Shown here one piece after another: positions 16,838 through 40,924 of a DNA stretch of 64,000 nucleotides. The notes beneath the pieces were generated by a model. It was not told the origin of the DNA, made no database searches, and worked only from the letters and a program-made list of their open reading frames with translations. The translations under genes were made by a program, and so were the position numbers. This stretch comes from Auricularia sp. M13 (Eukaryota > Basidiomycota > Agaricomycetes > Auriculariales > Auriculariaceae), in assembly GCA_037042915.1 (NCBI GenBank), contig CM073199.1, positions 620,001 to 684,000 on the forward strand, in the 5' to 3' direction. Within the stretch, counting starts at the first letter, position 1. Every line of letters begins with the position of its first letter.

Positions 16838-19800
16838 ATGGCTTGGCTGAAGCGCGTCTTCCACCCTCCGCCGGCCCCAGCTGGCTTTGGCAAAGGAGTC
16901 GAGTCTCCCGATGCGCGCGCCAACGTGCTCAGTCTGCTCACATTTGCCTGGCTCGGCCCTATGCTCTCAGTCGGCTGGACACGTCCGCTTGCCGAAGATG
17001 GTGCGCAAGTCGACGTTTTTTCGACAGAATTACTCGGATTAATATGAACTGTTTTCATCAGATTTGTGGGAAATGGATGCCAAACGCCAGGCGCGCACAG
17101 TGGCAGATACCGTCGAGACTCTGTTCTACGATCGGTGCCCACCGTTCAAACGCCCGCAACATCTCAGGCCGGCAACTCTGCGTACAGCTCGCCCCGCAAT
17201 GCCAACTAGTCCTGCTAGAGAAAAGGCTGAAATGGCTTCACCCAATGTCCTGGAAGACTCTGAGACGACCCCGGCCCCGACAATGACCCCGACACCTCTC
17301 CCGTCTGAGAAGGAGGCCCAGAGTCCTGACGTTGCTGCAGCACAGAAAGGAGGAAAGAAATGGGACATGAGCCTGCTTTGGACCATTAACAAGAGTGTGT
17401 ACACGCGTCCACGCTGCCGTTCGGATACAGTAGACTGACACGATTTACCAGCATTCTTCTGGCGGATCTGGTCCAGCGGTCTGCTCAAACTCTGCGGAGA
17501 CACCTTGAACACGACTACCCGTATGTCCTCACATCAGTTCATCCTATGAGGAGCGCGTAGAGGTAACCTCCAATAATAGCACTGGTAACGAAACTCCTAA
17601 TCCAGTATATCACGACGGCCTACATCTTCCACCGCGCGCCGGCGGAAACTGTCCCTGCGCCGCGGGCACCCGGGTACGGCATCGCCCTGGCGTTCGGAAT
17701 TTTCCTCATGCAGGAGACGAGCTCGCTGTGCAACAATCAGGTATGGCGCTCCGCTTCGACAGGCACCTTCTCTAACGGCTGACGCATGTGGAAAAATAGT
17801 ATTTCTTCCGCACGATGACTCTTGGCTTCCTGGTCCGCACGTCGCTCGTTTCAGTCATTTTCCGCAAGTCACTGCGGCTCTCCGGTCGCGCAAGACTGCA
17901 GCACTCGACAGGCCAAATCACGACCATGATCAGCGCAGACTGTAGTCGTCTCGACATGGCCAGCGGATTCTTTCACACAGTCTGGATCGCGCCCATTCAG
18001 ATCGCTGTCGGCATTGCGCTCCTGTAAGCTTCAATTCGAGAAGCCACGTGACAGGCGCTAAGCTCGAATTCAGCATTGTCAATCTGGGAGTGTCAGCCCT
18101 CGTCGGTCTCGCCGTCCTCTGCGTCTCCCTCCCTCTGGTGAGCATCTCAATCATTGTGCATTATACGAATTGTGGCTTAGCGTTATGATTTTAGCAAGCC
18201 ATTATGATCAGACGGATGGTAGCGGCTCGGCGTCGCAGTGTCAAGATGACGGATAAACGCGTCCGTCTTTTGCACGAAGTGCTTCAAGGCATACGGCTCC
18301 TGGTTCTTTTTGTGCGTCATCTTCGTCTATCTCTTGAAAGAACAGGACCAGCTGACTGTGAGTCAGAGCTGGCAAAGTCACTACGCTGAACGGCTCGTGG
18401 GAATGCGGCGCGCCGAGCTGCAGAATATTCGGCGGCTGGCATACATCCGTGCCATCCTTACTGCGACAACTACCTTCGTACGTGACTTCCACGACTGCTT
18501 TCACGTGTTAGTCTGACTACAAACCGCTACTCGTGTAGATCCCGGTACTCTGCGCTATCCTGAGCTTCATCACATATGCTCTGCTCGGACATACGCTCGA
18601 TCCCGCGACGATCTTCTCCAGCCTGCAGTTCTTCAACATCATTAGAGGTATGCGGTCGGCAGCCCGTTTGACCGTTCAATGCTGACGAGGCTCAAGCGCC
18701 ACTGTTGTTCTTCCCAATGGTCGCAAGCGCAGTGCGTCCGCCGCCACCGCCGTGTTCTCGTTATATACATTTTCTAACATTCTTATCCACGTTGAAAGTG
18801 CAGCGACGGTTATGTCTCCCTCGGTAGAATCAGCAAGATGTTGCTGGCGGAGGAGAATGAAGACGCTTACGAGATTACGCTGCCCTCCGCGTCATCTTCC
18901 GATGAGGATTTGGGCCTGTCCAAGAAGCCGAGGCCGCTCGCGGTCAGCATGCACGGAAGCTTCACATGGGAGCGCGGTGGCGCTGGAAACAACGGGCCGA
19001 ATCTGCATGCAAAATACGGCTTTGGCAAACCCGGTGGCGGGGGTGGACGATTCGGTCGTGGTGGAGGCGCAGTGGCTGGTATGAATACCGCAGCGCTTTT
19101 TCTCGGGGCTTGCTGCTGAACGCTGAATTGTCGTCGGTGTAGATGACAAGGCGAAGAAGGTCTCGAAGGCCGAACGCAAGGCGGCCGCGCTCAAGGAGAA
19201 GGAGAAGACGGCCGAGCAGAAGAAGAAGGCGAAGGAGGAGGAGGCAGCATACAAGGCGCGGCTGGAGAAATGGAAGCGCGGTATCCGGGCAGACGAGGAT
19301 GGCACATTCGAGAAAGGGCCTGAACCGTTTAAGCTCGAAAACATCGACTTCGACGTGCGTGTCGGTACGAATGTCTGTGGTGTACCTGATGGCGGGCATT
19401 GCGTAGGTTCGCAGCGGCTCGTTCGTCGCTATTGTCGGCCGGGTTGGAAGCGGGAAGAGCAGTCTACTGCAGGCGCTCGCTGGCGAGATGCGACGGATAT
19501 CTGGCGATATCCATTTTGGAGGCAACGTGGCATATGCCCCGCAGGCGCCATGGATACAGGCAAGTATTCCGATGTCTCAATTCCGATGTCTCAACTGAAG
19601 TCCGTTAACCCTGTTCAGAACCTTAACCTGCGTGAAAACATCACTTTCGGCCATGAGTTCGAGGAGGACCGTTTCAGGGAGGTCATTCGGGCGTGCGCAC
19701 TGGAGCCCGATCTTGCCATACTCCCTGACGGCGAGTTCACCGAGATCGGCGAGCGTGGCGTGAACCTGAGTGGCGGTCAAAAGGTCAGTTTCTTCACGAG

Positions 19801-38430: not shown

Positions 38431-40924
38431 AAATGGGCGCCTGGACTATTGGTGTGGCTTGCGCTGGCGCAGTGCGCTCAAGTCGCCAGCAACATTTTCC
38501 TCGGGTTCTGGACGGACCTGGGAATCCCGGGTTTCTCAACGGGACAGTATATGGGTGTCTATGCGTAAGTATCCGTTCTCATTTCAGATGCATTGCTGAT
38601 CCTAGATCCGTGTAGCGGTCTGGGCGCTGCGACGGCTCTTTTCACCTTCATCGGATCTCTCGCATTTGCTATCACGGGCTTCAACGCTTCGCTAAGCTTG
38701 TTCACCGCTGCCTTGCACGGTGTAATGGGGGCGCCATTGCGTTGGCACGAACGTACACCCACAGGTGCCATCACGAATAGGCTCAGCAAAGACATTGATA
38801 CTCTGGACATGATGTTGCCTCAAGCCTGGTTTCAATTATTGACTAACTTGGCGAGCATCTTCGGAACGGTTGCACTTGTGTTCTACGCTTATGCCTGGCT
38901 CGGAATTAGTAAGTCACGTGATCATAGACTGATCACGTGCTGAACCCGTTTGCAGTGCTGCCGCCATTGGCCATCAGTCAGTAAACACAAAATCAATGGC
39001 CCCTGCTAACACGCTGCAGTCTACTTCTTCTTCTCTATGTTTTACCGTCGGACGAGTATCGAGGTTAAACGTCTGGACTCGATCTTGCGCTCGTTGTTGT
39101 ATGCTTCATTCTCCGAAGCGTTGACAGGTTTAGGCACCATTCGGGCTTACAAGGCGGAACCTCGCTTTGTCCGCGACAGCGAGAAGAAGCTTGACTCTGA
39201 GAATCGGGTATGAAAACTTGCGGATGGCCTCCGGCTACTGACACGACCCCTTCTAGGCATACTTCATGACGATCGCTGCCCAGGTCCGTCATCTGACATT
39301 TGGCCACTACTTTCGTTCTGATATTTGCCTCTTCTTCTTAGCGGTGGCTAGGTTAGACCCACGCTCAACACCTCACTGCGGTCTAACGGCTGGCTCAGGT
39401 GTTCGCCTCGACTTATTGGGGAACTTGCTTGTCCTCGGAATTGGCCTCATCGCGGTCGGGTTCAGGAACACAACAAATCCTTCCAAGATGGGCGTGGTTA
39501 TGACATATTCACTTACCATCGTGCGTGCAGACGTCTTTATAGAGCTGCAGCCGTTGACACATGACAGACGCAAGTGATGTCCCAGATGGTGACAATGCTC
39601 GCTCAAGTTGAACAAGTGCGCGCATGCATTATTTCTGCTCTATGTACGCTCACGGTATATCTCAGAATATGAACACAGTAGAGCGCATCGTAAGTCATTG
39701 CTTGTGCATTCCAATGGATCACTCATTGCCCACTTTCAGGTCGTTTATTGTGACCTCGAACCAGAGCCACCCGCACGCACGGACGCGGATCCAAAGGGAG
39801 ACTGGCCGCCCAAGGGAGGTATCATATTCAAGAACGTTGACTTCAGGTATCGGGATGACCTTCCCCTGGCGCTGAAGAGCATATCATTCGAGATTCAACC
39901 AGGCGAACGCATCGGGATCGTTGGCAGAACAGGTGCCGGCAAATCATCCATCCTGACCGCGCTATTCCGTACTGGACCGCTTGCCGGTGGTCAAATCCTC
40001 ATTGACGGTGTCGACATCGAGAAAATCGGTCTGGAAAAGCTCAGGATGAGCTTGTCGATCATCCCACAGGACGCGCTTGTGCGTGTTTGTGAGCTAATTG
40101 TGCCCCTGGCTAATCCACTCTTCAGCTCTTCGTACGCCCGCGATCTTGGTCCAGTGAGCTGTCTGGACTAAACATCTGATACACAGGAAGGAACTCTTCG
40201 TTCCAATATCGACCCACTCGGCAAAAGGTCAGACGCAGAGCTACACGATGCGCTGAAACGGGTCGGTCTCGTCAACCCGCCAGTGGCAGAAGGTAGCGAA
40301 GCATCCGGCCCAGCCAAGTTCGATCTGGATCGCGAAGTTAGAGACGACTCGTTCTCGGCGGGAGAGAAACAGCTTCTCGCGCTCTGCAGAGCTCTCGTCA
40401 AGTCTGAATCGAAGGTCCTTGGTGCGTCCATGCATATATCCCCCATCAATAACTTGATACTAAGACACTCTCAGTGTTGGACGAGGCCACTTCGAGCGTA
40501 GATGTCGCAACTGACTCCATGTGCGTACTCCGAGAGTTCCGCGTTGTGATAGCCAATTGCTGACTGGACACTAGGATCCAAATGATGATCCAGCAAGATT
40601 TCAAGGATAGAACGCTGCTTTGCATTGCCCATAGATGTACGCTTCTCTCGTCACACTTGCAACACCGTGATTGACGGGACAAACCTTGCTGCAGTAAACA
40701 CGATAGTATACTACGACAGGGTTCTCGTGATGAACGAGGGGCAGGTGGCCGAATACGACACCCCGTTGAATCTGTTTGACAGCGGAGGTAGGCGCCGCTG
40801 CTTCCAGGAGCTCTATCCACCTAATCGATGTGCAGGTATATTCCGCTCAATGTGCGACCAGGCAGCTCTCTCGCGCGAGGATATAATCAGGATTCGCACC
40901 GCCGCAGGGGTACAGGAGAGATAA
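38431..40924 (+). CDS. MRP/ABCC-type ABC transporter, 3' part (TMD2-NBD2)
   Basis: Continues the interrupted gene: LKWAPGLLVWLALAQCAQVA then SNIFLGFWTDLGIPGF. TMD2 follows (LFTFIGSLAFAITGFNASLS, APLRWHERTPTGAITNRLSK, YFFFSMFYRRTSIEVKRLDS, SFSEALTGLGTIRAYKAE), then RWLGVRLDLLGN. NBD2 has Walker A GRTGAGKSS, Q-loop SIIPQDAL, signature FSAGEKQLLALCRAL, Walker B VLDEATSSVD and H-loop IAHR, ending AAGVQER at 40924. All exons stay open across short introns. Reading across one copy of GTGGTCTC links the two parts in frame (QAAGG-LKWAP), so the host gene was whole when hit. This part lacks its own obvious start; a half-transporter could be made only from a new promoter. Confidence 0.88.

Follow-up and report, generated by a model that had tools for sequence, protein, structure and literature searches.

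An 18-kb KDZ-type DNA transposon within an ABCC/MRP-class transporter gene of Auricularia sp. M13

Contig CM073199.1 of Auricularia sp. M13 (GCA_037042915.1) carries, within a stretch of 64,000 nucleotides (positions 620,001 to 684,000, called here the window and numbered from its first letter), an ATP-binding cassette (ABC) transporter gene of the ABCC/MRP class that is interrupted by a DNA transposon. The gene lies on the + strand at 16838-40924 (ATG at 16838, stop at 40924), and is divided into a 5' half, with the first transmembrane domain (TMD1), the first nucleotide-binding domain (NBD1) and the linker, and a 3' half with TMD2 and NBD2 (Table 1). The element has exact ends and a target duplication, two near-identical siblings of it are present in the same genome, and paralogues of the host gene are uninterrupted.

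The host gene and its paralogues

Both gene models are manual predictions guided by splice sites and sequence conservation. The left half has 15 introns, 14 of the GT-AG and one of the GC-AG type, and is free of stops. The right half, 581 residues long when counted from 38422, likewise has 15 introns, all GT-AG, and no internal stops. Host introns are 43-67 bp long, and taken together 29 of the 30 are GT-AG and 1 of the 30 is GC-AG.

The final 265 residues of the left half match PDB chains of MRP1, ABCC2 and YCF1 (best MRP1, E 7e-87), the NBD aligning on MRP1 residues 671-883, and in the right part residues 1-284 match TMD2 of MRP1 (best E 1.3e-54). The ABCC-type order, NBD1 followed by TMD2, is thus present in the host gene, as the MRP1 alignments and the paralogues indicate. 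When the two halves are aligned separately, and never joined, to the MRP1 chain 8vt4_A, the left part ends at residue 971 (by a stretch, 944-971, that at 6.6 bits is too weak alone) and the right part begins at residue 987 with its own residue 18; the halves meet within 1-2 residues on the uninterrupted protein. At the junction the left part reads ...YLQAAGG and the right part LKWAPGLLVW with the reading phase kept, and the cut falls at the linker/TMD2 boundary, the start of the second membrane domain.

Seven ABCC paralogues, chosen among the loci of the same genome, were inspected at the insertion point, the two halves being searched separately. In three of them (C7 at ~732.7 kb, C10 at ~486.6 kb and C2 at ~671.5 kb) the left and right matches follow each other with zero bases in between, and because these matches abut, the evidence for a frame in phase is stronger than that from the MRP1 alignment. 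In the C6 paralogue the gap is exactly the space of the unaligned residues, a result that depends on a weak second match (E 0.04). The C5 and C1 paralogues are shorter at the site by 1 and 2 codons, and the second C2 paralogue (~742.8 kb) has 106 bases against 54 expected, which may be due to an intron. The nearest paralogue lies 92 kb off on the same contig and reads unbroken through the point as ARAAGG-VRWVVLLMVW. An insertion longer than about 50 nt at this point is found in 0 of the 7 paralogues inspected. The continuous frame across the junction, and a host gene that was whole when the element landed, had both been proposed in a first-pass annotation of this DNA; the same-chain MRP1 alignments together with the three abutting paralogues bear out the former, and the paralogues that read through the insertion point the latter.

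Divergence from the nearest paralogue is similar in both halves. The nonsynonymous rate (dN) is 0.43 for the left and 0.39 for the right, and the synonymous rate (dS) is 1.75 for the left and saturated for the right. These values point to long-term constraint that would have acted before the split, and are silent on the time since the split.

The element, its ends and its copies

Queries of 339 bp from the left end and 331 bp from the right end of the element were run against the genome (52.1 Mb, 14 contigs). Each end was found in at least three places, and 20370 and 38422 are the exact window positions at which the matches in the other two places end, which fixes the ends of an element that the first-pass annotation had put at about 18 kb. 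The sibling copies are C11:2468877-2486933 (18,057 bp) and C9:3457925-3476266 (18,342 bp). All three copies (3/3) are flanked by exact 8-bp duplications, a different one for each: GTGGTCTC in the window, ACGGAATT at C11 and CAGGCAAT at C9. Counted over both strands, the window contains the octamer GTGGTCTC 3 times against 2.2 expected by chance, so the repeat by itself proves little. The first-pass annotation noted a 12-bp match between the flanks. This match, GCTGGTGGTCTC, does exist, and no more than 8 bp of it are target duplication, because the other two copies show CACCATAGG... and ...GGGCTG as the element termini. The four further bases, GCTG at the right, are part of the element's own end, and their likeness to the host is by chance.

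Imperfect inverted repeats begin about 20 bp inside the ends, the outermost 20 bp falling outside the alignment. The local alignment of the left and right ends has a score of 56, which is reached by 0 of 2000 random internal pairs (maximum 37).

The transposase gene is recognized by the KDZ domain (PF18758), found on two frame pieces of the window copy (5.5e-23 and 1.3e-6) and on a 65-residue piece of the frame in the C11 copy (1.1e-20). A CxC cysteine cluster in the frame 29508-30341 falls just under both family cut-offs (CxC1, 24.6 bits with a cut-off of 26.9; CxC2, 22.9 bits with a cut-off of 27). The Ulp1-type protease is matched by Peptidase_C48 (PF02902) at 24.7 bits, above the cut-off of 20.7, when three frame pieces are joined by X, and the pieces scanned singly match no family. 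Among the further element frames scanned no Pfam family exceeds its cut-off, and no TET/JBP family was found in 20 element frames and 4 further sequences scanned. A hAT-type element was also considered, hAT elements too giving 8-bp duplications, and was dropped after the KDZ domain was found. The element is best described as a KDZ superfamily DNA transposon, of a distinct, recently active, low-copy family of known kind.

The KDZ frame is broken by short indels common to the window and C9 copies (window 30916-31750) and is kept in the C11 copy. If these indels are real, a transposase acting in trans may have mobilized the window and C9 copies. The KDZ domain has many matches in this genome, at least 149 stretches (150 of 163 candidates scored). 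DNA matches to the transposase region of at least 500 bp outside the three copies are 66-71% identical, and shorter ones of 38-113 bp have 78-87% identity. Among the matches listed genome-wide, none of at least 500 bp lies between 71% and 99% identity, a gap that suggests either a recent arrival or a long-silent lineage turned active.

The C9 copy differs from the other two by an additional 494 bp at window point 34559 and by the lack of 201 bp at 22981. It differs also at 24882-25346, where a short-unit repeat array in a minus-strand open reading frame (ORF) of the element corresponds to an Ala/Pro/Thr-rich stretch.

The insertion sites of the siblings are informative as well. The C9 copy sits in phase between two open retroelement frames, one of 1102 residues with RT_RNaseH and integrase zinc-binding domains, and one of 334 residues on the other side with no family; the retroelement is, as we take it from the domain order, Gypsy-like. 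Three of seven further flank matches in the genome reach the C9 site, and all three lack the element there, the 8 bp being present once and the flanks 77-83% identical (one abuts exactly, and two do so by extending the right-flank match over 9 and 16 bases, with zero extra bases). The remaining four of the seven stop short of the site. At C9 too, both sides of this element's insertion are still open. Around the C11 copy, 1 of 7 frames scanned within 4 kb has a family match, an aldo-keto reductase about 2.3 kb away.

Table 1. Features of the interrupted transporter gene and of the inserted element (window coordinates)
Feature	Position	Strand	Remarks
ABC transporter 5' half (TMD1-NBD1-linker)	16838..20369	+	16 exons, 894 aa to ...YSYLQAAGG; gene model, PDB matches
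Left target-site duplication copy	20362..20369	+	8 bp, GTGGTCTC
KDZ-type DNA transposon	20370..38422	.	18,053 bp; termini CACCATAGG...GGGCTG; ends set by two other copies
Left imperfect (sub)terminal inverted repeat	20390..20473	+	~85 alignment columns
Accessory ORF, without Pfam family	20983..21528	+	part 20983-21354 searched: only in the three element copies
Transposase gene region, multi-exon (limits approximate)	29428..33334	+	KDZ pieces in frames 30916-31437 and 31223-31621
Ulp1/C48-type protease frames (limits approximate)	33322..34253	+	PF02902 Peptidase_C48
Accessory ORF, without Pfam family	36783..37238	-	part 36783-37211 searched: only in the three copies, fragmented in the C9 copy
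Right imperfect (sub)terminal inverted repeat	38318..38401	-	local alignment with left end
Right target-site duplication copy	38423..38430	+	8 bp, GTGGTCTC
ABC transporter 3' half (TMD2-NBD2)	38431..40924	+	16 exons, stop 40924; gene model, MRP1 match

Elsewhere in the window, two tandem DUF1996 genes (10468-11552 and 15070-16153) lie 4.6 kb apart and share 74-86% DNA identity in six blocks. On the minus strand at 44725-46383, a 553-residue frame has a match to the Het-C heterokaryon incompatibility family at its start, the rest being coded for by numerous short repeats in the DNA. Together with the short introns and the many KDZ matches, these Het-C and DUF1996 proteins suggest a fungal, basidiomycete-like genome.

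Age of the insertion and fate of the two halves

The window and C11 copies are 99.66% identical over 18,073 columns, with 26 mismatches and 29 gap openings. Private substitutions, counted over 17,792 gap-free columns, number 9 in the window copy, 16 in the C11 copy and 26 in the C9 copy. The distance of the window copy, 9/17,792 or 5.1e-4 per site, bounds the time since insertion from above, as mutations that preceded the jump are counted too. For dating, a rate between 1e-8 and 1e-9 per site and year is assumed, which puts the upper bound at about 50,000-500,000 years, or at about 96,000-960,000 years when the Poisson upper limit is used. The near-identity of the three copies, the 9 private substitutions and the uninterrupted paralogues support the youth of the insertion, which the first-pass annotation had offered as one of two readings.

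At 5.1e-4 per site, one expects 2.24 substitutions in the 4,425 nucleotides of host coding sequence, and 0.14 hits that create a nonsense codon or damage a splice site (P of none, 0.87). Intact halves therefore need no selection, and the open frames are uninformative on use.

Very probably, then, a recent KDZ insertion broke a whole ABCC gene, the halves of which are open mainly by youth, and the case is a real, young, ordinary gene disruption. In the proposed course of events, a recently active, low-copy KDZ transposon of 18 kb would have entered an exon of a whole ABCC/MRP gene at the start of TMD2, duplicating 8 bp of the target. Transposition was presumably catalysed by a KDZ transposase, perhaps acting in trans since the element's own KDZ frame is interrupted in the assembly, and both halves would have remained open mainly through recency.

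Some observations weigh against so simple an account. Indels of up to 3 bp among the copies number 56, compared with 51 substitutions, an unusual ratio, and 16 of them occur in the window copy alone. Were all of them genuine and acquired since the insertion, the host coding sequence should have received about 4, with a probability of 0.02 for none; no frame-breaking indel is found in the 4,425 nt modelled. This excess may reflect assembly errors in the repeat, an origin before landing, or selection on the halves. Homopolymer runs of at least four bases contain 19 of the 56 small indels, so simple homopolymer error cannot account for all of them, and the indels are probably in part assembly errors in the repeat and in part older than the jump. 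Gene conversion between copies could also hide mutations, the private mutations bounding the age from above only.

Two other explanations were weighed. The indel excess suggests an imperfect consensus in the repeat, and the assembly might then have joined the element artificially to a gene that is whole in reality; yet a misjoin would not make an exact 8-bp duplication at three sites, nor resume the frame in phase, and an artefact of this kind is extremely improbable. Alternatively, the insertion could be old, with copies kept alike by gene conversion, since exchange of sequence among the copies, which lie on three contigs, is conceivable in principle. Conversion, however, would not protect the single-copy host halves, in which no stop or splice defect is present over 4.4 kb of coding sequence, and would not preserve exact 8-bp duplications at three sites, which leaves an old insertion highly unlikely. 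Both explanations were rejected on the duplications at three sites.

What the two halves may still produce depends on their new borders. The frame of the left half runs on into the element, which adds 46 residues before a stop at 20508. Upstream of the right half there is an in-frame stop at 38401, and the first in-frame ATG, at 38551, is residue 44 of the right part; a start there would drop the hydrophobic stretch that is aligned with the start of the second membrane domain of MRP1. With the helix limits that we assume for TMD2, the in-frame sequence of the right half holds no start codon of its own ahead of the first TMD2 helix. For the right half to work, translation would have to begin at a non-AUG codon or from a spliced leader, and nothing in the sequence points that way. 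The gene is now probably a loss-of-function allele, because the left product would end 46 residues into the element and the right part is without a proper start.

The other reading of the first-pass annotation, that both half-transporters are used, supposes that the halves are expressed separately (TMD1-NBD1 and TMD2-NBD2) and assemble into a working pump, so that the split is maintained. Co-expressed halves of full-length ABC transporters can work, as in yeast Ste6 and CFTR. Both halves are free of stops with splice sites kept, the cut falls at the linker/TMD2 boundary, and, here again contrary to a simple disruption, intact halves are improbable by chance (P 0.02) if the indels of the window copy are real and followed the insertion. 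Set against this are the stop at 38401 and the lack of an in-frame ATG until 38551, with the likely loss of the hydrophobic stretch that opens TMD2, an age by substitutions at which intactness is uninformative, and the absence of an insertion longer than about 50 nt at the site from all seven paralogues. A maintained pair of half-transporters is accordingly given very little credence, and the use of both halves is not supported, the right half having no in-frame ATG before residue 44 and open frames being uninformative at this distance. In its most specific form, the split gene would still work through a 3' half expressed from an unrecognised promoter, with a non-AUG or spliced start in the right end of the element, and joining the 5' half. 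This too would be most surprising; if true, a transposon would have made two half-transporter genes from one full-length ABC gene in a single step. Function of the split gene was not retained as the leading reading, on account of the missing start and the young insertion.

A further explanation is compatible with a recent disruption. The interrupted copy may be one allele, with an intact allele in the other nucleus of a dikaryon or in other strains, and the chances of this are about even. Young insertions usually segregate, which favours an intact allele. On the other side, no such allele is seen: the places listed for a 370-bp query that stops at the junction are the window locus and a paralogue match (137 bp, 78% identity), though the 52-Mb assembly may cover a single haplotype.

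Taken as a recent disruption, the locus is a record of a large KDZ element that has been active recently, with cleanly defined ends, an exact 8-bp duplication at each copy, two siblings, and related sequences in which the site is unoccupied. It also supplies an ABCC transporter allele that arose naturally and is probably inactive. For the reading of genomes it carries the lesson that open frames flanking a young insertion are by themselves no evidence of use.

Comparison with known systems

In sequence and order of NBD1 and TMD2 the host gene is like other ABCC/MRP transporters (MRP1/ABCC1, ABCC2 and yeast YCF1), from which it differs in being interrupted at the start of TMD2. As to the element, no paper considered by its title describes it, which is not a claim of its absence from the literature.

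A comparable event is known in Pleurotus ostreatus, where poMSH4 has been split by a mobile fragment of which several copies exist (PMC7641404). Both cases are natural inactivations, probable in ours, of a mushroom gene by a multi-copy inserted DNA fragment. The Pleurotus case differs in that no KDZ-type transposon was found by its authors at the distance expected from the fragment's cysteine-cluster frames.

Several related groups of elements have been described. Zisupton elements occur in nematodes (PMC9297572). Zisupton and a Dileera element make 8-bp duplications, and Kyakuja of Laccaria makes 7-bp duplications and has 5'-CA..TG-3' termini without inverted repeats (PMC12730594). The present element resembles Kyakuja in its CA..TG termini, and Zisupton and Dileera in its 8-bp duplication. 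Unlike Laccaria Kyakuja, it has 8-bp instead of 7-bp duplications and possesses inverted repeats, and it differs from the Kyakuja, Dileera and Zisupton group in that its scanned frames contain no TET/JBP family. It has both CA..TG ends and 8-bp duplications, likenesses that may hint at its lineage.

The closest parallels are offered by KDZ1-KDZ3 of Cryptococcus neoformans, which are about 9-11 kb long with inverted repeats of 139-241 bp (KDZ1, about 11 kb with 241-bp repeats), and make target duplications of 8 bp (KDZ1) or 4-8 bp (KDZ2, KDZ3). Five full-length copies of KDZ1 were found in two isolates, and a KDZ insertion into a host gene is recorded (PMC12810828). Compared with these, the Auricularia element differs by its 18-kb length, its imperfect repeats of ~85 bp, its Ulp1-type protease and its accessory frames, and is like KDZ1-KDZ3 in its KDZ transposase, inverted repeats, 8-bp duplication, insertion into a host gene and small number of full-length copies.

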